Below are positions 12,212 to 47,893 of a stretch of DNA of 64,000 nucleotides, one piece after another. Source of the stretch: Cymbomonas tetramitiformis. Lineage: Eukaryota > Chlorophyta > Pyramimonadophyceae > Pyramimonadales > Pyramimonadaceae. The stretch covers positions 62,001-126,000 of the forward strand of contig LGRX02035220.1 in the NCBI GenBank assembly GCA_001247695.2. The letters are read 5' to 3'. Every line of letters starts with the position of its first letter. The stretch's first letter is position 1. A program made the position numbers and the translations under genes. The notes beneath the pieces are model-generated. The model saw nothing but the letters and a program-made list of their open reading frames with translations, made no database searches and was not told the DNA's origin.

Positions 12212-14839
12212 TTGCTGCGAAGAGGCCCTGCACGCATGCTGAGCGAATTCTTAGTCGAGCTGGTCTACGGCCCAAGGGAGCATGGGCTCTTGTCGCGTCG
12301 CAACAGAATCGCCGCGCGGTAACAGCTCCGCGACGCGACGCGAGCCAGGGATATCTCGACCCGAGCGGAAGTGCACGGAAAACGAGCTGGCGCGAATATC
12401 ATCGCGGGCCTAGAACGAGCAAGGGGAAACGAGAACGACAAGGCAAGGAGAAGCTGCCGCCGTGGTCAGTCATGACCCATGGCTACGCATGTTTCCGCGT
12501 TCAGCCATCCCCTGGGCTATCGCGGTATCGAATCCTGAAAGCGCTGCATATAACAGGGATACGCCCGCACATGATCGGGATATTTGGGATGAGGAATGTT
12601 GGACTGCGATCTCCGCAGCGTGTGCATTAGAAGCTCTCCTTACAGGCTATGATTAAACCGACCGACTGTTACGTAGCTCTCCGCTCTCCGTATTCGGACA
12701 AGCGCAGTGGTGTGCGGCGACCGCGTACGTGATTGGCAGCATTGCGGTGCGCACCGCAGGTGTCGCTTAGCTTGGACAATGCAGCGAGTTGCGATGGACC
12801 GAATGTGTGAACGCCCAGGATAATCTGAGTTTGCAGTGCATTTGGTTCGGTATATTTCCTAAGGAATTGTTAAGTACTGTCCGCTGCGCGAGGGAACGAG
12901 AGCTCAGACGTCTCAGCGTAAAAGTCGCTTTCTGCGCATGACAACATACCCCTAGCCCGCTTAGTGCAGGCGCATACGGTTGGCACGTGTGACATTTGGT
13001 TGGATGGATGCTGAGGCTTAATGCGCCCCCGGAAATTTTTCCTTACTGAAACAGTGGCGCGAAGAGCTTCCCGCTCGCGCGAGGAAATGGACAGGGCGCA
13101 GTCGTGAACTCCTGAGAGCCGAAGATTCATCTAGAGGAGGGCAAACAAAATGCCGTAGTATTCCCTAGCCTGCAAAAAGCGTTCTCCATGGTTCTGCACG
13201 CGTAAAGTCCCACGTTTCGTCAAGCTTAATGCACACAAGAACGAAGGCAGCAAGATGGGATTACCAAAACCTTTCGCACGGTTTCGTTGCGGAAGGAGAA
13301 TGGCGGGTATTTCTGCTTATGTCGTAGTCAAAGTAGTGCATACGAAATGGGAAATGTATAGAATTCCCCATCATGGCAGAGCCCAAACGCTAGGTAAAGC
13401 TTACCGCAAGGCTCTGATATAATGAGTTTCAGTTTGAGTGACACTCTACTGTCTTCAGTCAAACCCGGTCGATCAAAAACAAATCTCAAGGTTTGCTGGC
13501 CTGCTAGAGCTCTACAAGTGAAGTGTCCACGAGGTAACGAGTCAAGTAGGCCTGTCGTGTGGAGTGTCGATGTCGTGCGTCTCTCTCAAGTCTCATGTCA
13601 TTTTGATCATGATCATAATTGAAATTCATTCTTGATTCTTATTCTACACATCACGATCAGACCGAGACGTCATCGTCAAGTCACAAGTGATGATTCCTTC
13701 TCTGGCTTTGAGGAATTCACGAGACCTCAGAATTACTGAATTAGAGCCTCCGGAAAGCGATTTTTCCGGATTTTTATTTTCTGTAATAGCAAATAGGTGT
13801 AATTGCTGTCTATCGAGAATCGCGCGATCGGCCGAAGCTCGTAACCTCTGGCAAGCGGCTTGCCAGGTACGAGGTACCTGAACCTCTATCCATCGCTGGA
13901 TTGGATGAGTCATGTCATGTCATCCGACGTTAGCTCAGCAGTTCACAGCTTCACACGACAGCGAAAGTTCTGAGTTCAGAACTTCAGAATCATGCCATCA
14001 TGGAGTGCCAGATGTAATAGTGCCTCACCAACGCAAGCTAACGCAAGAAGAGCTCTCACGTCAGCTGCTTTGGTTCTGGTTCGAATCCCAATCTGTATGT
14101 TTGAAGTTTCCCTGCCTGCAAGTGCAGAGTTGCAGACAACGGGCAATCATCCGATCAGATTTCGAAGAGGTTGCCCAACTACCCATGATCTCAACCTCTT
14201 TTCGTTGACTTAGGTTGTGCATTTCCGAGTTGTCCGCTCTTCGATGTTCGAAACGTGGAGCTCCAAAATAGATCGACTCGGAAACGAATGAAGCCTTTGC
14301 GTGGGTCATAAGATAAGGCGTGTGCCCACATTCTTGAAACTGCTTTGCTTGGTTACCATCTTGACTTCGAATGAAGTAACAGTTTATTAACGTACATGTT
14401 TGGACACAAGATGTAGACGGCATAGTTTCGCGACTTTGGAACTGAGTGCAAAATAGTTAGATGCTGTCTACATTGGCGGATAATTTCGCACCCGCGGATA
14501 ACTTTACCTGCTAGGATGCTTACGCTGCAAACAACTCGTAGACATACGAGCGCTGGGCATCCCAGTTTGAGTCTTGTTCCGATATGCTGACACGGATGGG
14601 TGTTGTCGGGGAAAGCAGTTTTCGTGGAATATCTCCTGCGCGTCTTGGTGAAAAATGTCCAGAGAGCCGCAGGTACCCCGTGATTTTCCCAGTCGTTTCG
14701 TCAAATTCCTTTCGACGGTATTGAAGAAGCCGTTTCCCGCCGAATAGTATTTGTTCATGCTTGACGTTCGTCCAAGTAGACAGTCTTCACGCTCCCGGAA
14801 TGGCTTTATGTAGCTACCAAGTACTCAAGCGCCCGGACC
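12212..14839. other. Intergenic region between divergent genes
   Basis: I see no convincing coding sequence, RNA gene or clear repeat here. Base composition falls from GC-rich near 12.3 kb to near balanced by 13.5 kb. It must hold the promoters of the divergent Kelch/Pmp and F-box/LRR genes, but no specific element can be named. Confidence 0.5.
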
Positions 14840-29047: not shown

Positions 29048-29371
29048 TGTATGACTGTCACCGGTCCCGGAACCCTAGACCCCGAACATATAACGGGAAG
29101 ACTCGGTATTCCGTTTATCTATTCTGATTACCACACTGCGAGAACAGGTGTTCCGCTCGGTAAAACAAACTGGCTAAGCTCCCATAAACAGTCCGGCCGA
29201 GTGCTTTTATCATGCATCTCGGAAACCCGGATAATACGAAATAATGACTGACAGTACAGTATTACTGTACTGTCATCCTAGCTACTAGCGGAGTCACGGT
29301 TCCGATCAGAGACAGGTCAAGCTAGGGGCTATCAGAGCCCATAATAATAACCCTGAACCTAAAGTCCAGCA

Positions 29372-29743
29372 CACCACCCGGAGTTGTGACTGTAGCCAAT
29401 AGGGCTAGGCAAGCGGAGCTAACTAAACAGATAACAAACAGCACTTCACTGGAAACAGATATACTTTTAGCTGGGTGCCCGGGGACTTGTCCCGGCACAA
29501 CCCACCACTGCGGCTAAGGCTAATCACACCTCCAGGGTTTGAAATAAGCACTCAGCCACTGTAAAGCCGGTCGGCATAGCCGAGTTCAGCTGACGGATCC
29601 CAAGGCAGGAAGACATCCGAAGTAAGTTGAGATGAGACAGTCACCATGATTGTTGACACCACCAGACCCAAGTGGGTCAGGCGGATCCCAGAGTGGAGTG
29701 GCAAAATCATCAGATTGCAAAGCCGCTGAGGTCGATTGAGAAA
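29372..29743 (-). pseudogene. 3' remainder of the element B gag and untranslated tail
   Basis: Minus-strand sequence continues the gag of element B beyond the element A insertion (TTTCTCAATCGACCTCAGC, matching element A coding sequence near 33,300) and then the 3' untranslated part up to the LTR with its tail GGTGGTG. The insertion and later changes leave no functional frame. Confidence 0.6.
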
Positions 29744-30911
29744 AGAACTGCTGGACTTTAGGTTCAGGGTTATTATTATGGGCTCTGATAGCCCCTAGCC
29801 TGACCCGTCTCTGATCGGAACCGTGACTCCGCTAGTAGCTAGGATGACAGTACAGTAGTACTGTACTGTCAGTCATCACTTCGTATTATCCGGGTTTCCG
29901 AGATGCATGATAAAAGCACTCGGCCGGACTGATTATGGGAGCTTAGCCAGTTTGTTTTACCCGAGCGGAACACCTGTTCTCGCAGGTTATGCGCGTCACC
30001 ACTTCCCTAGTAATTCTGATGGCACAGCGCCTAGCTGTTGCCATGTTTGGCTAAGTTTTGACACAGAGATGGGGTGGGCGCCCCCTTAGGCAGTAGTTCG
30101 TCTTTCCGCGGTATGGCCTCTTTTTGAAGTGGAGATCAATTTATGGCACATTTTTCGGCAGCAGTATCGTCGCTTATTATGGCTTCTTTTTACGTTTCAC
30201 CTGGCCGGTGGAGAGGGCATTCCGCGTATTGTGGGTCGCAACCACTTTTAGCCAATCGGCTCATGACCTGTTTGATGTTGTTTTTACCGCTGAGACTTCT
30301 GCAGGATTGGCCGCTGCGTAATGCTTACTACTGTCGCTCCGTTAGCCCGCGACCCCATCTTGCCGTCATTTTTACTATGGAGACTCCGATTGGACCACGC
30401 ACACGCGCTAGAGCGCGGAAACTAGCAACCATTTTTGATGATGTTGGGGCGCTGAATGCGGCTACGCCATCGACTCCGCATTTGGCTTCGGGAGAGTCTG
30501 AGGCGTCCACTGCGGCAGCCGTACTTTTGCAGAGGTTGCGCAGGGATTCTTTCGATGTTCAGTGTGCCAAGACAGCAGCAACAAAAGTTCTGGGTGACAA
30601 AACTGCAAAATTTAAAGGCAGCGAGAATTCAGCTTCGGACATTTTTTCGCAATTGGTATCCGAGCTACAGCAGCTGTTCACGCTGCAGTCGCCTGCGTTT
30701 GCACCCTTGTTTGAACTGACAGCTGCTGACGCCCCTGTTCTGTCTGCTGCGAATGAGCTGTTATACGCTGTTGTCACGGATCGAAAGATGACAGACCCCC
30801 GCAGTCGCGATGTTGGTACGTCGTCGTCGATGTCACACGCATAGTCGATCATCGATCTGTAATAGTCCGATCTGTACGAGTACCACTGAAATGCGCGAGA
30901 GGATCATCATC

Positions 30912-30984
30912 CTCCGCGTAGCTCAGTTGGTTAGAGCGTCGCACTAGAGAAGCGAACGTCACGGGTTCAAATCCCGTCGTGGAG
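30912..30984 (+). tRNA. tRNA-like gene in left LTR of TRIM-1
   Basis: 73 nt fold as a class I cloverleaf: acceptor CTCCGCG with CGTGGAG (7 pairs including one G-T), D stem GCTC/GAGC, anticodon stem TCGCA/AGCGA (4 of 5 pairs), T stem ACGGG/CCCGT. A box TAGCTCAGTTGG and B box GGTTCAAATCC are perfect. The loop CTAGAGA would place AGA as anticodon, but AGA means serine and serine tRNAs have a long variable arm, so decoding is doubtful. Only three Ts follow. Confidence 0.65.
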
Positions 30985-31534
30985 CACTTTCGCCCCATGA
31001 CGATATATATGATTTGACCCGGCTCGTACCGTGAAATCCCCGCACCGATTTCAAACCCTAACATTGGTATCGAAGCGACGGTTCGGAAACCGCCTCAGAT
31101 GTAACGGCATAAGGCACACGATGTGACCTACGCTAAGATCGCGTATGCTCGGGCACGGCGATGTGACCTGCGCTACGATCGCGTATGCATGGGCACGATG
31201 TGACCCGCGCTGATGACGTGGATTCGGGCTGCATCCCAAGAACTGCGATGCACCTTCGGTGCGATGGGCTGCATCCCAAGAACTGCTACCCAGCTTCATC
31301 GCAGGCTGCCACGTCATCACATCTGAGGTCGGACCTCTGAAAAGTAACTCGACACGAATGTCGTGAGGTCACGACACTTTAAAGAGGGGAGCTATGTCAC
31401 GGATCGAAAGATGACAGACCCCCGCAGTCGCGATGTTGGTACGTCGTCGTCGATGTCACACGCATAGTCGATCATCGATCTGTAATAGTCCGATCTGTAC
31501 GAGTACCACTGAAATGCGCGAGAGGATCATCATC

Positions 31535-31607
31535 CTCCGCGTAGCTCAGTTGGTTAGAGCGTCGCACTAGAGAAGCGAACGTCACGGGTTCAAATCCCGT
31601 CGTGGAG
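31535..31607 (+). tRNA. tRNA-like gene in right LTR of TRIM-1
   Basis: Identical cloverleaf to the left LTR copy, with the same intact A and B boxes. As the second LTR copy it would be regenerated together with the first at each transposition. Confidence 0.65.
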
Positions 31608-33913
31608 CACTTTCGCTCCATGACGATATATATGATTTGACCCGGCTCGTACAGTGAAATCCCCGCACCGATTTCAAACCCTAACAGCTGTGCTGCTGCT
31701 GCTGACTGCGCCAGGGTCTCCTGCCCGTAATTGGGTAGAGGCTTCTGGTTCAGATGTTCCTGCCGATGGCAAACGTGCCACCCTCGAGGTGGTGCGTATG
31801 CTTGCGGATGTATCGACCCCGTTCGATGCATTTGCAGAGCTGCTTGAGGTTAGGATCTCTGATGAGCGAGACCCTGACTCTGACATTCGGCTGTTTAACA
31901 GCTGCCTTCGGGATGCACAGCGTCTACAGGCGCTGCCCGAGGACGCTGTTAAACGGCAATTCATCTCTGCGCTGTCTGGGCCGGCTTACGCCGCGCTGGT
32001 TGACTCGTTTGCTCGAGCTGACCAGCGTGCGGCTGTGAGTCTGCTCACCTTGCAGGCACGAGTCCGTGAGCAGTACCGCTGTGGGCGGCTCTCGGGCAAG
32101 CGCACTGCGGGGCGGCCCATGTCTGTTGCATCTTGCGCCACTGACACTGGCCTGTCTTCGGCCATTGATCGGCTCAGTGCTCAGTTGGTCAAGTTGCAGC
32201 GGGATGTGGATTCCCTTAAGAAGGGTGGCTCCAAGCCGCCTCATGGGAAACACACTCCGCGCAGCTTCCACCGACCTGGAGTGCAACCGCTTGCTCATTC
32301 CGCCTCTTCGGAGGTGGCTTTTGACAAGCGGTCTGGCACCTTTGTCCCAACGTGCAGGCACGAGAAGTGCCGCGCCGTTGGGTCGAAGCATTGGCTGAGT
32401 GAGTGTCCTCACAAGGACACTCGCCCGATGTCCATTTCGGCGTCCTACTGCCAAGCCGTCGAGTCTTATGACTCCGACGTGCTTGCCCTTCGTTTTCAGC
32501 GGTACTATGACGCTGGGGATGAGGGATCCATGGAGCACTTGTGTGCTCTCGTGGGGCAACCTGAAATCTGTGAGCTGTCTGCGCATTCCTTTGCTCCAGA
32601 GCCTACGGCTCTGCAGCAGTTCAAGGATGCTGCTGCCTCTGCTGAGTCTGCGCACCTGATGAGCACCTTTCCATTGGCCGTGTTGCATTTGCTGAGGTCA
32701 GCGGTCCGCTTGCTGGTGGTGTCGCTGAGCCGACCGCCAGCAAGCGGCTGCTGCCGAAGGCCTCTGCCCCCGTGCATGGTAAGCCGATTGACTTGCATGA
32801 GGTCAGCCGTGCCGCCTTCGTGCCGCCGTCTGCCTCTCTGGCTCTCGGCCCGGTGACTCCTGCTGACAGTTCATTCAAGACGTTCAACGCTGTCCACCCT
32901 GACTGGTTTGACATTGACCCTGAGCCTGTTGAGGTGTGTGATTCCGATGATGATGGGGAGGGCTCCTACTGCCCTCCTGGTGCCTGCCTGACTGAAATTG
33001 AGGGGGGTGCACCGCCGGCGGCTGCGGCATTTCGGCGGTTCGGGGTCCCCAGAGGCTCCAGGCCATTTGGCATCGGTGAGTTTGCACTCAGCCTTTTCAT
33101 GGTGGCTACGTTTCTCTTCAGTGCTACGGCGATGCCGACCCTCGTGGTCGGCGGTGGTGTCAGGGGCCTGGTTGAGCCCGGAGCCACTTACGGCTACGAT
33201 TCACTACGGTCTCATGAAGCACTACTGGATTATCTTTGCCCGCCTGTGGTTACTGCTGGTCCGTCATTGACACCGCAGGATGTAACACAGTTCTTTTCTC
33301 AATCGACCTCAGCGGCTTTGCAATCTGATGGTTTTGCCACTCCACTTTGGGATCCGCCTGACCCACTTGGGTCTGGTGGTGTCAGTACTTACAAGTTTTC
33401 ATCTCAACTTACTTCGGATGTTTTCCTGCCTTGGAATCCGTCTGCTGAACTCGGCTCTGCCGACCAGCTTTGCAGTGGCTAGAGTCTGCTTATTTCAAAT
33501 CCTGGTGGTGTGTAGGTGTGATTAGCCTTAGCCGCAGTGGTGGGTTGTGCCGGGACAAGTCCCCGGGCACCCAGCTTGAAGTATATCTGTTTCCAGTAAA
33601 GTGCTGTTTGTTATCTGTTTAGTTAGCTCCGCTTGCCTAGCCCTATTGGCTGCAGTCACAGCTCCGGGTGGTGTGCTGGACTTTAGGTTCAGGGTTATTA
33701 TTATGGGCTCTGATAGCCCCTAGCCTGACCCGTCTCTGATCGGATCGAACCGTGACTCCGCTAGTAGCTAGGATGACAGTACAGTAGTACTGTACTGTCA
33801 GTCATCACTTCGTATTATCCGGGTTTCCGAGATGCATGATAAAAGCACTCGGCCGGACTGATTATGGGAGCTTAGCCAGTTTGTTTTACCCGAGCGGAAC
33901 ACCTGTTCTCGCA

Positions 33914-35906
33914 AGAACTGCGTTACATCCCGCGGCGGCAATGACGAACCAACGGTAACCACAGGCGGGCAAAGAGAATCCAGTACCGCATCACCGGGAT
34001 GAACTGCACCGTAGCCGTAGGTGGCTCCGGGCTCAACCAGGCCCCTGACACCACCGCCGACCACGAGGGTCGGCATCGCCGTAGCACTGAACAGGAACGT
34101 AGCCACCATGAAAAGAGTGAGTGCAAATTCCCCGATGCCAAATGGCCTGGAGCCTCTGGGGACTCCGAACCGCCGAAATGCTGCAGCCGTCGGCGGTGCA
34201 CCCCCCTCAATTTCAGTCAGGCAGACACCAGGAGGGTAGTCGGAGCCCTCCCCATCATCATCGGAATCACACACCTCAACAGGCTCAGGGTCAATGTCAA
34301 ACCAGTCAGGGTGGACAGTGTTGAATGTTTTGAAAGAGCTGTCAGCAGGAGCCATCGGGCCGAGAGCCAGAGAGGCAGACGGCGGCACAAAGGCGGCACG
34401 GCCGACCTCATGCAAGCTAACCGGCTCACCATGCACGGGTGCAGAGGCCTTCGGCAGCAGCTGCTTGTCAGTGGTCGGCCCAGCGACACCACCAGCAAGC
34501 GGACCGCTGACCTCAGCAAATGCAACACGGCCAATGGAAAGATGCTCAGCAGGTGCAGACTCAGCAGAGGCAGCAGCATCCTTGAACCGCCGCAGAGCCG
34601 TAGGCTCTGGAGCAAAGGAATGCGCAGACAGCTCACAGATTTCAGGTTGCCCCACGAGAGCACACAAGTGCTCCATGGACCCCTCATCCCCAGCGTCATA
34701 GTACCGCTGAAAACGAAGGGCAAGCACGTCGGAGTCATAAGACTCGACGGCTTGGCAGTAGGACGCCGAGATGGACAGCGGGTGAGTGTCCTTGTGAGGA
34801 CACTCACTCAGCCAATGCTTTGACCCAACGGCGCGGCACTTCTCGTGCCTGCACGCTGGGACAAAGGTGCCAGACCGCTTGTCAAAAGCCACCTCCGAAG
34901 AGGCGGAATGAGCAAGTGGTTACACTCCAGGTCGGTGGAAGTTGCGCGGAGTGTGCTTCCCAGGGGGCGGCTTGGGGCCACCCCTCTTAAGGGAATCCAC
35001 ATCCCGCTGCAACTTGACCAACTGAGAACTGAGCCGCTCAATGGCCGAAGCCAGGCCAGTGTCAGTGGTGCAAGATGCAACAGACATGGGCCGCCCCGCA
35101 GTGCGCTTGCCCGAGAGCCGCCCACAACGGTACTGCTCACGGACTCGCGCCTGCAAGGTGAGCAGACTCACAGCCGCACGCTGGTCAGCTCGAGCAAACG
35201 AGTCAACCAGCGCGGCGTAAGCCGGCCCAGACAGCGCAGAGATGAATTGCCGTTTAACAGCGTCCTCGGGCAGCGTCTGTAGACGCTGTGCATCCCGAAG
35301 GCAGCTGTTAAACAGCCGAATGTCAGAGTCAGGATCCCTCTCACCAGAGATCCTAACCTCAAGCAGCTCTGCAAATGCATCGAACGGGGTCGATACATCC
35401 GCAAGCATACGCACCACCTCTAGGGTGGCACGTTTGCCATCGGCAGGAACATCTGAACCAGAAGCCTCTACCCAATTACGGGCAGGAGACCCTGGCGCAG
35501 TCAGCAGCAGCAGCACAAAGTATAACAGCTCATTGGCAGCAGACAAAACAGGGGTGTCAGCAGCAGTCAGTTCAAACAGGGGTGCAAACGCCGGCGATTG
35601 CAGCGTGAGCTGTTGTAGTTCGGATACCAATTGTGAAAAAATGTCCGAAGCTGAGTTCTCGTCGCCTTTAAATTTTGCAGTCTTATCACCCAGAACTTTT
35701 GTCGCTGCCGTTTTGGCACACTGGACGTCAAATGAGTCCCTGCGCAATCTCTGCAGAAGTACGGCTGCCGCGGTGGACGCCTCAGACTCTCCCGAAGCCA
35801 AATGCGGAGTCGTTGGCGTAGCCGCATTCAGTGCCCCAACATCATCAAAAATAGTTGCTAGTTTTCGCGCTCTAGCGCGTGTGCGTGGTCCAAGTGGAGT
35901 CTCCAT
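33914..35906 (-). pseudogene. Gag-like protein of element B, 5' portion
   Basis: Starts METPLGPRTRARARKLATI. It is collinear with the element A protein but has a nonsense codon (CAA to TAA) at about 34920, just before the zinc-knuckle region (CRHEKCRAVGSKHWLSEC). Beyond the stop the frame stays open to the insertion point of element A after DVTQF. The C-terminal remainder lies on the far side of element A. It has the same hydrophobic segment (FALTLFMVATFLFSATAM). Confidence 0.7.
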
Positions 35907-37156
35907 AGTAAAAATGACGGCAAGATGGGGTCGTGGGCTAACGGAACGACAGTAGTAAGTATTCTGCAGCGGCCAATCCTGCAGAAGTCTCAGCGGTAAA
36001 ACAACATCAAACAGGTCATGAGCCGATTGGCTAAAAGTGGTTGCGACCCACAATACGCGGAATGCCCTCTCCACCGGCCAGGTGAAACGTAAAAAAGAAG
36101 CCATAGTGAGCGACGATACTGCTGCCGAAAAATGTTCCAAAAACTGATCTCCACTTCAAAAGAGGCCATACTGCGGAAAGATGAACTACTGCCTAAGGGG
36201 GCGCCCACCCCATCTCTGTGTCAAAACTTAGCCAAACATGGCAACAGCTAGGCGCTGTGCCATCAGAATTACTAGGGAAGTGGTGACGCGCATAACCTGC
36301 GAGAACAGGTGTTCCGCTCGGTAAAACAAACTGGCTAAGCTCCCATAAACAGTCCGGCTGAGTGCTTTTATCATGCATCTCGGAAACCCGGATAATACGA
36401 AATAATGACTGACAGTACAGTATTACTGTACTGTCATCCTAGCTACTAGCGGAGTCACGGTTCCGATCAGAGACAGGTCAGGCTAGGGGCTATCAGAGCC
36501 CATAATAATAACCCTGAACCTAAAGTCCAGCACACACTCCGAATATACAGTCAAGCTGATATATTCAGCAGGTTATGGGCCCACCACGCTTCCACTGCGT
36601 TGAATAAGAAAAGGAAAATTGGCCATTTGCGGCCCATCCCTTGCTGCGCGATGTCCTGGCGACGTCAGAAACCACCATGGGGGACCTTAGCTTCACTTTT
36701 AATATGGTTTGGAGGTAGGAAACGTAAAAACTCAGTAACGGACGGTACATCACCGTGGATGGGTAGCTAGCTTTCTTGCTAGCTTGACCTATTTTGGCGG
36801 AGTGTGATGAATTCTCATGCGATTTCCACGGGAACACGTGCGTGAAGCTTGAAAACTTCACTCGCGTGGTCTAGTAAAGTTGTATCGGAACGTTTCCAAG
36901 CTGCCAAGCGCCCTCTTTATCGCCCTAAACAACATCATTTTCACCACGGAAATCGGAAAGGACTTGAGTCATGAGGAACGTAATTATTTCCCCCAACAGT
37001 CGCGGCGGGACCAGCCGCGTGCCCCGCGGGTCCAGCGGGGTACCGACAACGGCAGATTGGGGGGAAAACAGAGCGTTCCTTCGTGTGTCACTCCTCGGCG
37101 TCTACGTGGCACGGTGGGGATCCAGTACTCCGTACGGCACCAGAATCGCCATCAAT

Positions 37157-37227
37157 AGCCAGAGTAGCTCAACGGCAGAGCGCTCGTCCGGTATGCGAGA
37201 GGTCACGGGCTCGATCCCGGCCTGGCT
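37157..37227 (+). tRNA. tRNA-like sequence in left LTR of TRIM-3
   Basis: A tRNA-like cloverleaf with acceptor AGCCAG/CTGGCT, D arm GCTC/GAGC and anticodon stem CTCGT/GCGAG (last pair T-G). The T arm has two mismatches. A box TAGCTCAACGGC is good; B box GGCTCGATCCC has one change. The loop CCGGTAT would give GGT (threonine), but position 33 is C, not T, so translation use is unlikely. TTTTT follows within a few bases, a Pol III terminator. Confidence 0.5.
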
Positions 37228-37544
37228 CACCTTTTTCGGGCTTCTGGTCTAGCGGTACAGTTTCGGTTTCCCCATGAGGTTATGGGCCCACCACGCTTCC
37301 ACTGCGCATCGCGGTTGTGTGGTTGTGCCACGTAGACACTTCAGAGTGAGGTTGTGTCATGAGGAACGTAATTATTTTCCCCAACAGTCGCGGCGGGACC
37401 AGCCGCGTGCCCCGCGGGTCCAGCGGGGTACCGACAACGGCAGATTGGGGGGGAAACAGAGCGTTCCTTCGTGTGTCACTCCTCGGCGTCTACGTGGCAC
37501 GGTGGGGATCCAGTACTCTGTACGGCACCAGAATCGCCATCAAT

Positions 37545-37615
37545 AGCCAGAGTAGCTCAACGGCAGAGCGCTCGTCCGGTATGCGAGAGGTCACTGGCTC
37601 GATCCCGGCCTGGCT
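37545..37615 (+). tRNA. tRNA-like sequence in right LTR of TRIM-3
   Basis: Same as the left LTR copy except for a CGGG to CTGG change in the T arm. A T5 run follows. Confidence 0.5.
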
Positions 37616-37672
37616 CACCCCTTTTTCGGGCTTCTGGACTAGCGGTACAGTTTCTGTTTCCCCATGATTGAG

Positions 37673-38663
37673 TCATCTCCGATTTCCATGGGCGCTACTC
37701 GGATCCGAGCCGCAGCGCCGACTTGTGAACGTACTGAATACCTATCAATTATAACATCGTAAGGATAGATATGTAAAATTATTAAGGGATGCTTTACTAT
37801 CAAGCAGCATTGCAGGCCATACACACCGTTGAAAGCTCCTTTCAGAGCCGGAAGCAACCTTGCGTAGAATTCTCAACGAACGGCTGAGCTTTCGAGTTTC
37901 CTTGAACGTCTCCGAGATCGAGAGCTCATATGCATTCAATTTCAGATCGGCCAACCAGAAACGATAAATCCGTTTCCGGTTGACCTAGGTGCGTACCTAG
38001 ACGACAAGTATTTTGTCTGCGATATGCCGCATCAGTGATGCCATCTAGAGTGTTATATCGCCCACGACATACGCAAAACACGTAGTGATTTCTCTGGTCC
38101 GACTAGTTTCGCAAGTCTTTCGTTATAATTAGTAGCGATCGGCGCACGCTTATTTATGCGCGTGATCACACACACGCATTCGATGGCTACAATGTCAAAA
38201 CCAATATTTGAAAACAGTATGCCGTTTTTTGCCGGCGGATATACCCTTCCACCGGAAATCGCCGTTTCGACCGGCGGTAGCCGATATGTTCCGGCAAATG
38301 ACCATAATCGTTGCCGGTAACAGCACGCTAGATAACGGCAAATTCAATTTGGTTTAGTTCACATGAAATATCAACCCATCAAGATGAGTAAACCAACAGT
38401 TGTGTCAATTTTCGCGCAATCCGATATCTGCGTTTGAATATCAGCTAGCTTATGAGTATGAACTTATGGCATTTTAAAAGTGCTAAGATCAAGGGTCGGT
38501 ATCGATTGTACCAAAAGCCGATAATATGAATAGTCGTTATCGATACCATCGCTCTATCGGCGATAGTGCGTTGCACTCTCACTATCGCTGATTAATCGAT
38601 CATATACGCACCCGTATTAGCATGTTTGTTGTGTGCTATGTCATGCTACGTATATGTGTCATA
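37673..38663. other. AT-rich region without recognised gene
   Basis: No credible coding frame. It contains scattered CCGGC words around 38.2-38.33 kb and nothing I can classify. Confidence 0.4.
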
Positions 38664-38995
38664 CAGTAATAACTCACCTTTAAGAAAACCCGGCGATAAG
38701 AAACCGGCCAGCTTTGGGGGTACCGAAGTTGTCGAGAAAAGCCGCTGGTTTTTTGAGCTATGGAATCCTCGAAAATAAGAAATATGGGTCTTGGCGCCGC
38801 AGGCGGAAAATTTTGAAAAATGTCGCCTTTTTAAGTGTTTATCATTGGACTTTTAAGAGAATTGCTGGCCGATTGAAAGAAAATACTTGCTAATTCTTAC
38901 CGATTCCATAGACGAGCCGGCGGGGGGTACGCAAGTTGGTGGAATTAGCTGGCTGACCCCAAATCTCCGGTTTTCTTAAAGGTGAGTGATTACTG
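38664..38995. mobile_element. Tc1/mariner-like MITE
   Basis: Imperfect terminal inverted repeats of about 28 bp beginning CAGTAATAACTCACCTTTAA on the left and CAGTAATCACTCACCTTTAA on the reverse of the right end. A TA dinucleotide flanks each end, as Tc1/mariner elements require. At 332 bp it has no coding capacity and must be mobilised by another transposase. Confidence 0.7.
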
Positions 38996-39594
38996 TATGG
39001 CACTCCGCATGTGAATGACGAGCAATCGATATTATCGCACTGATACCAATAATCGAGTGCAACAAATTAAGTATCACTTGCAATCGATAGCAAAATTTAG
39101 AACCGATACCGGCCCATGGTTAAGATCACACATGTCGTGTGGCTAACACTAAGGATCGAATCGCAGAGACACAGCAGTTGCCGCACACACCAAGGTGGCT
39201 AACAATCGAAGACCAAGAGCCAGGCAAAGCACGGTATTGTTTTCTCCACGAATGTTGTTCCCACGTAAAAGAAACAAATAAACCGTACTTTCCGAATAAA
39301 TTTGAGAAGTCTAGTAAAAAAAGAAACAACCAAAAACCCCCCAGCTGAGCCACAAAATGAAAACCCGCTGGGGGTAGCTGTAATAAAGGAATCAAGCAAC
39401 CCACCCTGCGTCATTCATGCCGCGAGCAACGGATTCATAAAACTCCAGAAACCCCAGAGTTAAATCCTGCCAGGCTAGGCAACGACGTCGCCTGCGCACT
39501 GCAGCACGTACGTACCTCTCCATCTCGATAGCCCGAAGCTCGCGACGCATGTATACGTGCCAGTCGTAAGCACCATGAAACTCGCCGTCATCCG

Positions 39595-39933
39595 CTAGCT
39601 AGGTTGAAAGTAGTGCACGTCTCCAACGTGCCCCACATAAAAAGTGGGATCCTCTACATCTTCTGAGTAGTCGCTTTCCTCTGCTGATGAATAATTGTGT
39701 TCAAGTTCCACGTCGAGCGTGTCAGAGTGAGCAACTTCAAGAGACATATCGGTCTGGGCGGCATAATGGTCCAGGCGAGAGACAAAAGAATGGGAGCTCT
39801 CAACAATAAGCGGAGCAAGCACAACAACGTGTGCAACCTCAAATTCCCGTAACGTAGCCAGGCGACGAACTAGGGCCCTCAACTCGAAACGGTTGAGTGC
39901 CTCTAACCTCCCAAACTGATGATCCACCCCCAC
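39595..39933 (-). CDS. Hypothetical 112-residue open frame
   Basis: Begins with GTG or an internal codon. It contains a helical segment (LRALVRRLATLREFEVA) followed by an acidic Ser/Asp/Glu tail (SSAEESDYSEDVEDP). I do not recognise it. It could be a remnant of a mobile element or a chance frame. Confidence 0.2.
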   Translation of the reverse strand: MGVDHQFGRLEALNRFELRALVRRLATLREFEVAHVVVLAPLIVESSHSFVSRLDHYAAQTDMSLEVAHSDTLDVELEHNYSSAEESDYSEDVEDPTFYVGHVGDVHYFQPS

Positions 39934-39934
39934 C

Positions 39935-40200
39935 GCTCTTTCTTCTTTTGCCTTGCTTCCTCATACCCCGGGGGGTGGGCTCCTCCTTCCGATAATCGAT
40001 TTCCTACTTGCCGGGGGTTTTTCCCCTTTCCTGCTCCCCCTTCCTGATCTGTAATTTTTCTTTCCCTGATTGCCTTTTTCCTTGATATTCCCTTTTATCT
40101 GGTCCCTCTATATATTTTTTTATCTGTATATTTCTTCAGATCTTCATTTCTATTTTTTCCTGATCGCCTCTTCCTTTTTTATGATCGCTAGATTTTCTCT
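39935..40200. other. Pyrimidine-rich tract
   Basis: About 270 bp of strongly C/T-biased plus strand with runs such as TTTTTCCCCTTTCC, ending at the TRIM-2 insertion; a similar bias resumes after the element. No gene seen. Confidence 0.6.
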
Positions 40201-40284
40201 CATGCTCTTAGGGTTCTATAAATAGTGATGGGATTTTTCACTGTTTGAGATGGGTCGAGCGTAATCCATCGCGGCGAAAATGGT

Positions 40285-40356
40285 ATCCGCGACGGGACTC
40301 GAACCCATGACCTCCTGGTTGAATCACAGTCGCTCTACCAACTGAGCTACGCGGGT
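40285..40356 (-). tRNA. tRNA-like gene in the promoter-distal LTR of TRIM-2
   Basis: 72 nt with acceptor ACCCGCG/CGCGGAT (6 of 7 pairs), D arm GCTC/GAGC, T stem ATGGG/CCCGT, A box TAGCTCAGTTGG and perfect B box GGTTCGAGTCC. The anticodon stem is badly paired, so no anticodon can be read with confidence. TTTT follows a few bases downstream, a Pol III stop. Confidence 0.6.
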
Positions 40357-40883
40357 TGATGATGACATCGACCCGCATTCAGTGGTACTCATTCAGTTTC
40401 TGATATAATTACGGATCGCGATTCGGCAGCTTCGATGACGCACCAACATCTGATGACTGCTCGCGATCCCTAACATATCTCCCCACTTGAAATCATATCG
40501 TCACCTAACGATTCGTGTTCCAGTTCGTATCACAGTTCGGTCGATGTGATGACGTGGCAGCTTACTATGAGCCGAATTGCAGTTCTTGGGATGCAACCCA
40601 TCGCACCGAAGGTGCATCGCAGTTCTTGGGATGCAGCCCGAATCCACGTCATCAGCGCGGGTCACATCGTGCCCATGCATACGCGATCGTAGCGCAGGTC
40701 ACATCACCGTGCCCGAGCATACGCGATCTTAGCGTAGGTCACATCATGTGCCTTATGCTGTTACATCGGACACCGAATCTGCGAGCCGTTTACGAGAATA
40801 CCAATCTTAGGGCTCTATAAATAGTGATGGGATTTTTCACTGTTTGAGATGGGTCGAGCGTAATCCATCGCGGCGAAAATGGT

Positions 40884-40955
40884 ATCCGCGACGGGACTCG
40901 AACCCATGACCTCCTGATTGAATCACAGTCGCTCTACCAACTGGGCTACGCGGGT
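40884..40955 (-). tRNA. tRNA-like gene in the promoter-proximal LTR of TRIM-2
   Basis: As the other LTR copy, with small differences in the D loop (CAG to CCC context) and anticodon region. A and B boxes and the TTTT terminator are kept. Confidence 0.6.
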
Positions 40956-41079
40956 TGATGATGGCATCGACCCGCATTCAGTGGTACTCATTCAGTTTCT
41001 GATATAATTACGGATCGCGATTCGGCAGCTTCGATGACGCACCAACATCTGATGACTGCTCGCGATCCCTAACACATGC

Positions 41080-41970
41080 TTTCATCGCACTTTCCCCCTG
41101 CCTAGTTTGATTCAGATCGCTGACCGCGATATCCCGCTCGCTGATTGCTTCCGCGCTCTTCCTCTCACCATCCGACTTTCACTCCTTTATTCTCGACCGT
41201 TTTTCTTGCTATTTTCATGTTAGATATGGACGACACAAACGTAGGTTATAGGTTCAATATGAAACAAATGTCATAAGCACCACACACACACACACACACA
41301 CACACATCACCTGTTAAATACGAAATCCCCAGATTTGGGACGGCCCGGTCCCAAATTTCATTAATAGAATTCGAAAACGATTAGGAATTTTTGGGACCAG
41401 TGTCATACAATGGTGTATGTACAGTGTGTATGCGTATGTCTATAGCATCGTCCATCGGTCAGGGGGAGAGAGCGAGAGACGAGAGCAGCAGCGCACCTTT
41501 CATGATCCATAGGAGTTCCCAACTAACGCTGAGCCGTCCATTAGTTTCAGATCGTGAACATCGGAAGGTCCGAAGAGATTTCTGGGGAGCGACGAAGGAA
41601 TATATGTCGTATTTTGATCTCTAGCATGTCGGCTTTCAGATTCGGGAAATTGCCCGTGTTAAAAATTAACGGACCATTTTAAGTTGTGCCGCTCTAATGA
41701 TCCACAGCGGCAGCAGGTCGTATCGGGCAACAACCCAATAACTGTACAGCTGCTTCCTATGGGAATTGCATGCTGCTTAATGAGGTAATAGGCACTTGAC
41801 AACTGCCTATGGAATTCACACTTCCTTGAGGGGGGAAGAAGGTGGAACCATATATATACTTCACCTCATTATATCAATGTACAAAAATAATACATGTACA
41901 ATATATATATATATATCACACACACACACATCCTTTTTGAAGGTTTTGTTGGTGTGGTGTTTTATTTTAG
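41080..41970. other. Non-coding region with microsatellites
   Basis: Holds a CA run at about 41281-41306 and a TA/CA run at about 41900-41930. It ends in TTTTATTTTAG just before the gypsy gag start. No gene recognised; LTRs for the gypsy fragment were not found. Confidence 0.5.
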
Positions 41971-43610
41971 ATGGCAGAAGAACCATCAGATATACCAGCT
42001 ATCGATCTCGATCCTAATAACTGGTACTTTGACATTCTGGGTTCTTATGATCATTTCAGCAGATTCAAAATACCTTCATGGTTAAAGGGTTATGCTGACA
42101 CACAAACCCGATATGATCAGATAGGATATTTCGATGCCATCAGCAGAATGAAGACAGGCATGAGTCGGTATAGAGATCCAGAAACTGAGCCTAAGGAACC
42201 AGATGAGGATTACTCAGAGGATAATCCCCCGCCTGCATTTACAGATCCAGATGATGGTCAGGCCACCGCAGCATTAATTCCAGCCGCAATTGTCCCTAAG
42301 GTGAAAATGAATCCACCGAAGGAGTACAAAGTCGGACAGGATGCGGAGGTTTGGATGGAGACAGTAGACAGATATTTTCAGTTTACATATCCAGGTGCAC
42401 CAGATAAGGACCTCATCACAGTCTTCCTCACGTTCATACAGAATAATGACAGACACTACTTTCATGTCGTGGCTAAAACACCAGATGCCACGTATGAAGA
42501 TGTCATGAATACATTCCTCAGGCAGTTCGGAAATCCCCACAAGCGGTCAGTTGCCAAAAAGCATCTAATGGCACTGCAGCAGGGTAACCAGACTTTTGCA
42601 GATTACCTACGCACATTCACATCACTGACTTCTCTAGCATCAGTTGATTTGGATGATGTCTTGATCAAGGACATATTCGTCAGTAACATGGAATCAGACC
42701 TTCGGAAACAGTTTAATCTCAGATTTCTGACAGAGGATGAAAGGAATAACCTCAAGGTATGGCTTACGCGAGGTCGACTTTACACAAAACTTCGGAAAAT
42801 ATTTTTATTCGATAATCATGTCGCTTAAACCAATCTAAACATATTGCGCGCTCTGGGTATACAATTGACCCAGGCACTGAAAAGTTATGGCCGATACCGC
42901 TCGGTTACCTCCCATACTTAACCATACTTAAGCGCACACTTAAATCGCATTTATCTCACGATCTAGAAAATCGGAAGTTTTGTGTAAAGTCGACCTCGCG
43001 TAAGCCATACCTTGACCTGTCGTGGGCACAAACCACACAGGTTCTGCTCGATTTGAATTATGTAGTTCATTCGAAGCAGGCAGAGACCCTTCACTATAGG
43101 GGACAGAAGGAACAGTCGGGAGGCCCAGCCAGAAAAGACAAGGACAAGGGCCGTGGCAATACGCCATATGACAGAGCCAATCAGAATCAAGGCAACCAGA
43201 ATCAGAATGCCAACCATAATTCCCAGAAGAATAAAGGAAAAGGCAAAGGAAAAAGAAAAGGAAAGGGATCAGCATCATCTCCTTCCCAGCCTTGTCAACG
43301 TCGTGGTCGTACCAATCACGTCACAAAGGATTGCTTTTCTACCAAGACACCAGAAGGGAAACCCATAAAAGGCAATCCTCCAGCTCAGAATCCATACAAA
43401 GGACAGCAGCAACAGAATAATCAGGGTGGCAAAAGTGAGTCTAACAAACTCCTGAAAACAGTCAACACCCTGGTTAAGGAGCTCCAGAATCAGCAGAGCA
43501 TCAATGCAGCAGTTGCAGCTCCAGCTCCAGCTCCAGCATCAGCTCCAGCTCCTCAGGGAAACTCTCCGGGTACCGGGCAGGTACCAGTGATGAGGGCAGC
43601 CCGGGGATAA
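41971..43610 (+). pseudogene. Ty3/gypsy-type Gag, interrupted by a MITE
   Basis: Starts MAEEPSDIPAIDLDP. The middle part (VWMETVDRYFQFTYPGAPD, FLTFIQNNDRHYFH, LRQFGNPHKRSVAKKHL) has the retrotransposon Gag fold signature. The frame is interrupted at 42753-43014 and resumes in frame after removal of the insert and one target copy. A Lys/Gly-rich linker follows, then a zinc knuckle remnant CQRRGRTNHVTKDC in which the second cysteine is replaced by arginine. A stop occurs after VPVMRAARG. It would package element RNA if intact. Confidence 0.75.
42753..43014. mobile_element. 262-bp MITE with perfect 41-bp inverted repeats
   Basis: Ends are identical inverted repeats beginning CAAGGTATGGCTTACGCGAG and running 41 bp without mismatch. 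The flanking 4-bp duplication is ACCT (42749-42752 and 43015-43018). The interior is AT-rich and non-coding. Family not known to me; a 4-bp duplication is unlike the TA of mariners or the 8 bp of hATs. Confidence 0.85.
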
Positions 43611-44632: not shown

Positions 44633-47600
44633 TGCTGGATGTGACACACCGTGTGTCACTTCCTGTTATCTGTACTAGTACTCCTCACAGTACGGGTGTC
44701 ACAGGTTTAGGGTTTCCGGCATAAAACCGAGACTAACTTATGTTTTATCTACACTCTTGCAAACCGAAAGTGAAAGCATTCTGACCGTAACACAATATAT
44801 AGTCGTAGCTATATATCTCACAGGTTATGGTGCGCCAGGCACCTTCCACTACTTTTGGTAGCATGATTGGCTAAACGCCTCCGCTTGGTGGGGCGTTGGG
44901 AGCCCCATTTGATGGTTGCGCTATGAGGACTCGCGGTTGAGGCACGCGTCGTTACGGAGTAATTGTGTTTATCGTTGCAGCGTACCCTACGTGATTTTCT
45001 GGATGTCCACGGGATTTTCGTTTTGACTGGAATTGATCACTCCTTGTCGCGGACTTCTTGCGCAACGTGTTCTTCGACTTCCACATTTCTACAATTGGGA
45101 TTTCACAGTTACGGACGTTTTGACTGCTTTTGCCATCACCATTTCCGCGAGTTCCTCCTCTCCGCGCCGTCGCCACCTTACCCCGACGTACCCACCTATA
45201 TAATTTTTTTATCATGAGTGTTTCTTCGCACGCTACGCCTCCCATGGGGGCTCACAACCGAATTCGTCTAGACACAATTTTTTCCCGAGACGTTGGGATG
45301 CGCTATCGGCCGACACCTGCGTCTCCAGCAGCGACTTTGACGGCCCCTGAGCGGACACGTGCCGTGGCCGTCCAGAATTCGTCATGGGACGTGGATTTGA
45401 TCAAGAGGACGTCTCGAGACGCTCTTGGCTCCAAGGATGCGTCATTCCGAGGTGACGAGTCGGACCGCAATGTACTATGGACATCGTTGGTGACGTCTTT
45501 ACAGTCGGCGTTTGAGCTGAAGGACGCCGCCAACGACACCCTCTTCGACTTGGCGGATGCCACCAACGCCATCCTCTTTACGACGTTGGCATCTTTGACC
45601 AAACCGCACTCACCCGCGAGGCGTTGGGTGGACGCTTCTGGACGTGCTTCCCCGCGGGATGGGAAGCGAGCCTTGCTTGAGGTTACGAAGCGGCTCCTTC
45701 CTCGTGTTCTCCGACCCCTTGGGAACTACGAAGAGTTGTGTGCTATCTACTTCGACTCCAAGCTCGACCCCGACCCGCTAATTCAAGATTTTGACGCCTG
45801 CTTGACCGCCATCCGCAACGCAGCCTCTGGTCCGCTCGACGACATGGTGGCCAAGAAGCAACTACTCGCGTCCCTCGACCCCATCATGTACGACAAGGTC
45901 ACGACTCCGCTTCGGCTCGACGTGGACTTGGCCAAGGTCGACCTCGAGGACATCTACGCCCACATCCTCGAGATTTGGGAGAGCGAGAACGGTGTTGGCC
46001 GCGCGAAGCAGCCTAAGCCGTCACCTCCGACTTCCCCGACTATGCTTTACTCTGGTGGAATTGACGTGAAGGGCCTCATCATGGAGTTCGAGAAGCAATT
46101 GGAGGCCGCCGCCTCGACTCTCGTAACGCTGAAGGACTCAATCGCGAAGGACGACGAGCCTCTTTCTGGATTCGCTGACTCTCACCGCCACCGCCAGCAG
46201 CCTGACGGTAAGCGGGGTGTCTCCTTTCCGCCCTCACGTTGGCGGGATGAACGCAACAGGAGGGACGATGGGAAGTTCCATGGACGGAGCAATCGTGTTG
46301 GAGGCTATGGCGCACGAAAGAGCTTCCGCTTCGCCGCAAGCCCGCTCAAGACCGACGGGAATTGGAGTCAGAACCACTACAAAAAGAACTCCGCCCACAA
46401 CATCTCGTTCCACGTGGCCTCCTCCGCCTTCGTCCCTGAGTGCGCGCGTTGTCCACCTGGACACTTCCACGACACCGCGAATTGCCCCACGGACGACATG
46501 GCATGCGCGGAGTGCGACTTGGTGACTGCCGACGAGAACGACGAGATTGTGTCCGCGTTCCAGACCGCCTTCGACGCCCAGGACGACGCCACCTTCGCTC
46601 GACTGTGTGGGCAACATGATCAACCCGTTGTTCGTCACGACGAGGAGCCCTTTACCTTCGCCGACGACAACAACATCAGCCTTCGGGCGCAGTACGCAGG
46701 CTTAATTCCTTCTCCGCCCTCTCTCCTTGCTACCCGCGTGCACGAGGCGCGCACGGCTCTCCGTGAGCTGAAGCAGGTGGCCGGTGGTGTTGAGTCGGCT
46801 CCGCAGCATTTTCCCATGGTTCATTTCGGCACGGCCACGCCCGCCGTGACCGACGAGAGCGTCGCGGAGCCTGAACCGCAAGTGACGGCCGAGAGCGACG
46901 AGAGCGCGCTAATCTTCCCGAAGCAGTTCGTCGACAACGAACCCCCCTTCGAGCAGTCCTTTATGGACGGCATGTCTGCGAAATTGGGCTTCTTCGAGCC
47001 CGAGCCGCAGGTTTCAATTCAATCCTTCAGCCCCCTGCCTCCGTACATTTCTTCCACGCATGATTCGGCTAGCGTCGCTGACTCAGAATCTGGCGACGAG
47101 GGATTACATGTGGACGCACCGCCACCCACTCCACGGGTTGGTGGTGTCCGGGCACCGCCGTCAATTGGCAGTCTCCTCACGGCAGCAGCACTGCCGGCTC
47201 TGTTCATGTGTGTTAGCATGGCTTTGCTCGACACCGTCACCGCCTCTACACTTTGTCTCAGATTCCTCCACGGGCGGTGGTGTCCGGGCAGTACTTCGAT
47301 TGTCAGAATTGCGCAAACTTCTTCCCTGACTCCGCCTTTCTGGACTCTGGACCCGCCGACCCCGACGACAACTTCAATCTGGACTCTGGTTCTCTGGGCT
47401 TTGACACTTTTGACTTCTTCAATCTGAACTTTGAGATTGACAACGGCAACTTCAACAGTGAACTCTACTTTGTAGACCGCTTTCAAAGTGGCTAGAGTTG
47501 TTTTGTGACTGCTGGTAGCTTGCTAGATCAGTATTGGGCCAAGATGCCTACCTGTGTGCACAGCTAGCTAGAGATTTGGGACCGCCCTGGCCAAGAGCAC

Positions 47601-47893
47601 GGGCCCCCTCTAGAATTATTTCCACCGCTTGAGATGGTGTGTTTTCAGACTGCAACAACCCTGCTCCACCCTAACTCTTCCTCCGTAATAGTCCAGGGTG
47701 GTGTGCTGGATGTGACACACCGTGTGTCACTTCCTGTTATCTGTACTAGTACTCCGTACAGTACGGGTGTCACAGGTTTAGGGTTTCCGGCATAAAGCCG
47801 AGACTAACTTATGTTTTATCTACACTCTTGCAAACCGAAAGTGAAAGCATTCTGACCGTAACACAATATATAGTCGTAGCTATATATATCACA
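44633..47893 (+). mobile_element. Element C: gag-only LTR retroelement
   Basis: LTRs of 190 bp (44633-44822 and 47704-47893), starting TGCTGGATGTGACACACC and ending ATATATCTCACA, with target duplication TGAGC (44628-44632 and 47894-47898). The primer site GGTTATGGTGCGCC begins at 44823. A CCAGGGTGGTG tract precedes the right LTR. It encodes only a Gag-like protein; total length 3.26 kb, the same size class as A and B. Confidence 0.92.
45214..47495 (+). pseudogene. Gag-like protein of element C with C-terminal frameshifts
   Basis: Starts MSVSSHATPPMGAHNRIRLD and stays open for about 670 codons. Homologous to the A/B protein (SPARRWVDASGRASPRDGKR against SPARNWVEASGSDVPADGKR in those copies). 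The zinc knuckle CARCPPGHFHDTANC has spacing CX2CX5HX4C. Asp/Glu-rich spacers follow, then a hydrophobic segment (SLLTAAALPALFMCVSMALL). After about 47,230 the conserved pieces fall in two other frames (GGGVRA, then the acidic end closing in DRFQSG), so at least two indels are present. Confidence 0.75.

Follow-up and report, generated by a model that had tools for sequence, protein, structure and literature searches.

The 64,000-nucleotide window analyzed here (contig LGRX02035220.1, positions 62,001 to 126,000; coordinates below are those of the window) comes from Cymbomonas tetramitiformis, a chlorophyte prasinophyte (Pyramimonadales). It carries three terminal-repeat retrotransposons in miniature (TRIMs), called TRIM-1, TRIM-2 and TRIM-3, which lie in the nuclear genome. 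All three have paired long terminal repeats (LTRs), 5-bp target-site duplications (TSDs) and primer sites of varying quality, and tRNA-derived sequence is present in all six LTRs. Judged from their sequence, the three copies very probably represent two families of the Helenus type, Helenus being the name of TRIMs with tRNA-derived LTRs for which a role as promoter for RNA polymerase III (Pol III) has been proposed (Kojima 2024, PMC10886601, cited throughout for part of its text). A preliminary description of the stretch had placed the three elements exactly to the base, and the near-identical LTR pairs (97–99% alike) and 5-bp TSDs that it reported were found in all three.

TRIM-1 (30772–31686, plus strand, 915 bp) is nested in a gag-bearing LTR element, element A, and no protein was recognised in it. 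Its 5' LTR (30772–31063, 292 bp, TG...CA) and 3' LTR (31395–31686, 292 bp) are 99.3% identical, with two substitutions, and the TSD is GCTGT (left 30767–30771, right 31687–31691, plus strand). The tRNA-like part of the 5' LTR (30912–30985, plus strand) scored 58.4 bits with the tRNA model of Rfam, was called Ser(AGA) by ARAGORN, and contains the A box TAGCTCAGTTGG and the B box GGTTCAAATCC; that of the 3' LTR (31535–31608, plus strand) likewise scored 58.4 bits. The primer site, which starts with TTGGTATC (31064–31085, plus strand), is a moderate fit to the 3' end of plant initiator tRNA-Met (iMet), and the purine tract AAAGAGGGGAG (31381–31391, plus strand) is clear when judged by eye. The site of TRIM-1 is empty in the related gag element B, where a single 5-mer, TTTGT, stands against GCTGT (two differences). 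Since element B is uninterrupted at the matching place and has one 5-mer there, TRIM-1 is a clean integrase-type insertion. For TRIM-2 and TRIM-3 no empty counterpart was found. The predicted fold of the TRIM-1 interior was better than all of 100 shuffles (z −3.0), a result for one sequence that contains near-tandem repeats.

TRIM-2 (40206–41074, 869 bp) lies on the minus strand, and its 5' LTR (40805–41074) and 3' LTR (40206–40475), also on the minus strand, differ by four substitutions in 270 bp. The TSD is GCATG in the sense of the element (CATGC on the plus strand; 40201–40205 and 41075–41079). The tRNA-like parts of the 5' LTR (40883–40955, minus strand, 41.4 bits, called SeC(TCA), selenocysteine, by ARAGORN) and of the 3' LTR (40284–40356, minus strand, 46.8 bits) are both followed by TTTT. 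The primer site TTGGTAT (40798–40804, minus strand) is weak, and the purine tract AAGTGGGGAGA (40478–40488, minus strand), which contains one T, is nearly clear by eye.

TRIM-3 (36969–37667, plus strand, 699 bp) has LTRs that are 97% alike, with six substitutions and a 2-bp gap (5' LTR, 36969–37277, 309 bp; 3' LTR, 37357–37667, 311 bp; both plus strand), and the TSD is TTGAG (36964–36968 and 37668–37672). Its tRNA-like parts (5' LTR, 37158–37227, 33.9 bits; 3' LTR, 37546–37615, 32.1 bits; both plus strand) are each followed by TTTTT. The primer site (37278–37307, plus strand) is complementary to initiator tRNA-Met over its 5' half, as far as the anticodon loop; the purine tract GAGTGAGG (37344–37351, plus strand) is weak by eye. 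A 25-nt inverted repeat (80%) links the TRIM-3 LTR before the tRNA-like part (37088–37112) with the end of the interior (37325–37349). The primer sites and purine tracts of the preliminary description are therefore present, but the primer site is weak in TRIM-2 and the purine tract is weak in TRIM-3. Its statement that the elements encode nothing held for TRIM-1, in that a protein search with the chance 105-codon frame of the interior returned no homologue, but each element does contain an open stretch of some length (longest 105 codons in TRIM-1, 103 in TRIM-2 and 105 in TRIM-3).

All six LTRs exceeded the gathering score of the Rfam tRNA model, in agreement with the earlier claim of tRNA-like sequence in both LTRs of each element. 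These were the sole Rfam matches at threshold in the 64-kb window, of which the six LTRs together make up 2.7%, and outside the six LTRs neither ARAGORN nor Rfam at the gathering score found a tRNA in the window. With Rfam at E values up to 1 over 36900–41150, nothing appeared beyond the four tRNA matches (TRIM-1, outside that stretch, was covered at the gathering score). ARAGORN called four of the six tRNA-like parts, those of TRIM-1 and TRIM-2. Its Ser(AGA) call, of 74 nt, lacks a long variable arm; its SeC(TCA) call measures 76 nt. By the rules of tRNA structure, anticodon and body disagree in both, a serine tRNA having a long variable arm and 76 nt being too short for a selenocysteine body.

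This mismatch, and the lack of any tRNA match elsewhere in the window, argue against an origin of the tRNA-like parts by chance insertion of ordinary tRNA genes or tRNA-derived short interspersed elements (SINEs) into the LTRs after integration. What is more, in each of the three elements the tRNA-like part occupies matching positions in the two LTRs, and was evidently copied along with them; it therefore predates the last round of transposition. Ordinary tRNA genes lying there by chance were rejected on this ground, and we regard post-integration insertion in general as extremely improbable. Entry of a SINE into an LTR is in fact the origin that Kojima proposed for Helenus, but it is placed before the spread of the elements, not after it (PMC10886601). 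In a phage collection the only match was a weak one: two records of a single phage were 79.5% identical across two pieces, which cover 16% of the query and fit, by coordinates, the two tRNA-like parts. Exact-pattern scans of viral contigs with the iMet-like stretch and pieces of the elements gave no match, in a collection from which the window's own genome records may be absent.

By sequence alignment, the three copies are two unrelated families, one made up of TRIM-1 and TRIM-2 and the other of TRIM-3. TRIM-1 and TRIM-2 are 74.6% identical over 777 bp. The TRIM-3 LTRs differ from those of both, the best blastn match (E = 0.012) being 41 bp in the region of the T arm and the T run. The likeness of TRIM-1 and TRIM-2 is very uneven. 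The best-scoring stretch of their alignment is an internal core (31098–31286, plus strand, in TRIM-1; 40579–40767, minus strand, in TRIM-2) in which 185 of 189 columns agree (98%), as against 437 of 743 in the remainder of the alignment; the 5' LTRs, with their tRNA-like parts set aside, agree at 124 of 225 columns (55%). The core divergence of 2.1% is little above the divergence of the LTR pairs within each copy (0.7% in TRIM-1, 1.5% in TRIM-2), and so the core was shared shortly before these insertions. These numbers suggest that TRIM-1 and TRIM-2 recently exchanged a core, for which template switching between co-packaged RNAs would be the simplest route; strong selection on the core, in place of recombination, is the alternative. 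The core also holds imperfect 40-bp tandem repeats, whose register is alike in both elements.

The tRNA-like part is, we infer, an internal Pol III promoter, and with moderate confidence we propose that Pol III is the main source of genomic RNA. In this mechanism, transcription would begin immediately before the tRNA-like part of the 5' LTR, continue across the element and end past the corresponding part of the 3' LTR. The tRNA-like part (~80 nt) would then take the role of the terminal repeat R in the strand jump. The TRIMs would parasitise the machinery of LTR retrotransposons, with reverse transcription primed by tRNA-Met and integration by proteins that an autonomous element supplies.

Several features weigh against Pol III as the source, and most of them favour transcription of the genomic RNA by RNA polymerase II (Pol II) from an ordinary LTR promoter, with the tRNA-like part a passenger or a source of short terminated RNAs only. 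The preliminary description was right that T4 or T5 runs follow the tRNA-like part in TRIM-2 (TTTT) and TRIM-3 (TTTTT). However, they do so directly in the 5' LTRs as well, so that most Pol III transcripts of these two elements would stop there, and the beginning of the 3' LTR of TRIM-3 holds a further TTTT, ahead of the tRNA-like part. In TRIM-1, on the other hand, the tRNA-like part is followed by TTT only and no T4 run occurs anywhere, which leaves the 3' LTR without a Pol III stop. A ATATATAT stretch in the TRIM-1 LTR, 3' of the tRNA-like part, leaves room for Pol II in that element. The A box fits the consensus in all six LTRs, and the A and B boxes claimed earlier are both present in the four LTRs of TRIM-1 and TRIM-2, but the B box is off consensus in both LTRs of TRIM-3. 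Substitutions between the two LTRs of a copy, moreover, are not depleted in the tRNA-like part: it holds 3 of the 12 (3 of 217 sites, versus 9 of 654 elsewhere; p = 1), a comparison that fails to bear out the selection for transcription claimed in the preliminary description. The terminator difficulty might be met if Pol III passes T runs with some probability, or else Pol II would make the genomic RNA.

Against Pol II stands the recurrence of the tRNA-like part in two families whose LTRs are otherwise unrelated. Between the 5' LTRs of TRIM-1 and TRIM-2, what is more, 33 of 38 columns agree in the D and T arms, compared with the 124 of 225 in the rest of the LTR (p = 0.00014), and in TRIM-2 and TRIM-3 no TATA-like stretch was seen by eye at the matching place, a promoter scan not having been made. 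We consider Pol II a possible but doubtful source of the genomic RNA. In the published Helenus elements, Pol III transcription has likewise not been demonstrated (PMC10886601).

The anticodon arm behaves differently from the D and T arms, with 4 of 19 columns in agreement between TRIM-1 and TRIM-2, which is below background (p = 0.007); both p values treat columns as independent and are a guide only. This contrast, in which both box regions are kept and the anticodon arm is not, also argues against a non-promoter role of the tRNA-like part, such as a mark for Pol III-targeted integration, a signal for packaging or dimer formation, or a hairpin of the R region. In TRIM-1 the acceptor stem is fully paired (7/7), as is the T stem (5/5), so the fold itself may be the feature that is kept; a role of this kind nevertheless appears unlikely to us.

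Whether the kept boxes reflect selection is a separate matter. The damage to the anticodon arm that had been reported is seen in TRIM-2 (3 of 5 stem pairs) and TRIM-1 (4 of 5, its single unpaired position), but not in TRIM-3, where all five pairs form and the Rfam alignment places the misfits in the T arm and the acceptor stem (the stem slices of the TRIM-3 T arm are rough owing to a deletion). A poor anticodon arm fits loss of decoding. It would be seen equally if the units came from different tRNAs, all of which have A and B boxes, so that such descent would give a like pattern. Over its full length the tRNA-like part agrees at 49 of 74 columns, a proportion no higher than in the stretch that precedes it (29 of 41), which is a further point against selection; the outermost part of the LTR agrees less than the tRNA-like part (49 of 103). 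Selection for transcription, as put forward in the preliminary description, is then weakly supported by these comparisons: the D and T arms of TRIM-1 and TRIM-2 are well kept, but the damage in TRIM-3 is the opposite, the LTR pairs show no depletion, and the whole part is no better kept.

The primer sites bear on the question of how the elements are mobilised. When compared with the plant initiator tRNA-Met sequence, from which the alga's own may differ, the TRIM-3 primer site fits at 29 of 30 bases, from the D arm to the anticodon loop. The interior of TRIM-1, with TTGGTAT, matches the 3' end of the same tRNA exactly over 7 bases and at 16 of 21 over a longer stretch; in that of TRIM-2, also with TTGGTAT, only 6 bases fit, which is weak. 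Half-tRNA priming is a known trait of Copia elements. From the half-tRNA priming and the 5-bp TSDs, the autonomous element that mobilises the TRIMs is probably of the Copia kind. We note in addition a 30-base exact match at 36570–36599 to the last LTR base and first 29 interior bases of TRIM-3. It adjoins element B, outside any recognised element, and may be a remnant of another element with the TRIM-3 primer.

A Pfam search of 20 open reading frames (ORFs) of the window, a subset of those present, found no reverse transcriptase or integrase, which weighs against the reading proposed here; the sole retroelement family found was Retrotrans_gag, at 41971–42825. Self-comparison of the window showed that element A (29749–33913, plus strand, with LTRs at 29749–29984 and 33674–33913) is an insertion in the related element B (about 29137–36532, minus strand), the two being 94.4–94.6% identical across their two longest pieces. 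Both are gag-only LTR elements of a single family, on opposite strands and one nested in the other (A inside B, 29137–36532); the TSDs of the pair are 5 bp long (AGAAC; GTGTG), and no pol was found in them among the ORFs tested. The gag protein of B had 35 protein matches, 34 from Cymbomonas tetramitiformis and one a metagenome entry, and the best of these was 100% identical across the aligned 81% of the query. Many relatives in Cymbomonas carry the annotation hypothetical protein. A third gag-like LTR element (44633–47893) has 190-bp LTRs that are 97.9% alike, the TSD TGAGC and a 765-aa ORF without a Pfam match; its interior begins with GGTTATGG. The interiors of gag elements A, B and C start with GGTTATG. 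An adjoining gene encodes a dihydrouridine synthase, whose best match is a EukProt entry (100% over 91%), and at 10770–12275 both strands have long open frames built of short repeated peptide units.

The preliminary description had proposed a tRNA-promoter system parallel to that of Cassandra. This is still the best reading, but elements of this kind have already been published as Helenus, which is grouped with Cassandra and Ajax as TRIMp3 (PMC10886601). The elements described here share with Helenus a length below 1000 bp (915, 869 and 699 bp), the lack of a recognised transposition protein, tRNA-derived sequence in both LTRs and, at a strength that varies between the three, a primer site and purine tract. 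Of the two boxes conserved in Helenus, the A box is found in all six LTRs and the B box in four. Helenus TSDs are 5 bp in fungi and the plant host and 4 bp in animals (PMC10886601), and the 5-bp TSDs seen here are those of fungal and plant members; several families per genome are a further common feature. Disagreement of anticodon and body is reported for many Helenus families, and priming at the iMet anticodon loop is the commonest type in those of fungi (PMC10886601); we see the first in our tRNA-like parts and the second in TRIM-3. TRIM-1 and TRIM-2 differ in that they appear to use the iMet 3' end, with a moderate and a weak fit, respectively. They also differ in the near-identical core under divergent LTRs, which we did not meet in the part of the published description covered, and the host here is a chlorophyte.

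Cassandra, from land plants, carries 5S rRNA sequence in its LTRs, and its transcription is reported as shown (via PMC10886601). It shares with TRIM-1, TRIM-2 and TRIM-3 a Pol III promoter of small-RNA origin in both LTRs, here a predicted one, which is derived from tRNA and not from 5S rRNA. Membership in Cassandra was rejected, there being no 5S match in the window at the Rfam gathering score. SINE2 elements use a tRNA head as Pol III promoter, and the three elements are predicted to do likewise. SINEs, however, are without LTRs, primer sites and integrase-type 5-bp TSDs, all of which are found here, and the LTR pairs set the three elements apart from SINE2.

Helenus hosts are fungi, animals and one plant, and Selaginella stands alone among Viridiplantae in the host table; TRIMs in general are already known from green algae (PMC10886601). 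Given that host table, with Selaginella only, the addition made here is two unrelated families in a chlorophyte. In the open-licence literature, covered by title and start of abstract, there was no report of tRNA-bearing TRIMs in a chlorophyte (the supplementary tables of Kojima lie outside this scope). For Cymbomonas itself, the text of PMC10675990 does not contain the word Copia, and its sole match to "trim" refers to trimmed reads; the text of PMC5741210 is without "tRNA", and TRIM elements are not mentioned in the passages covered. The host phylum thus appears to be new for Helenus-type TRIMs, the kind itself being published.

The extension of tRNA-promoter TRIMs to Chlorophyta supports the idea of a repeated uptake of Pol III promoters by LTR parasites. 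We can tentatively picture, as a speculative extension, two chlorophyte TRIM families that each gained a tRNA-derived Pol III promoter as R region and that evolve by module swapping: LTRs with different tRNA units would be combined with one common core through template switching, with promoter and packaging parts recombining freely between families. The near-identical core under divergent LTRs offers a concrete case in which recombination between packaged RNAs may be examined. The finding also bears on annotation. In rust fungi, tRNA counts are inflated by Helenus (PMC10886601), and the Cymbomonas assembly comprises 914 Mb, of which interspersed repeats account for 68% (PMC10675990, cited in part); elements of this kind may likewise inflate the tRNA counts of this large, repeat-rich genome.

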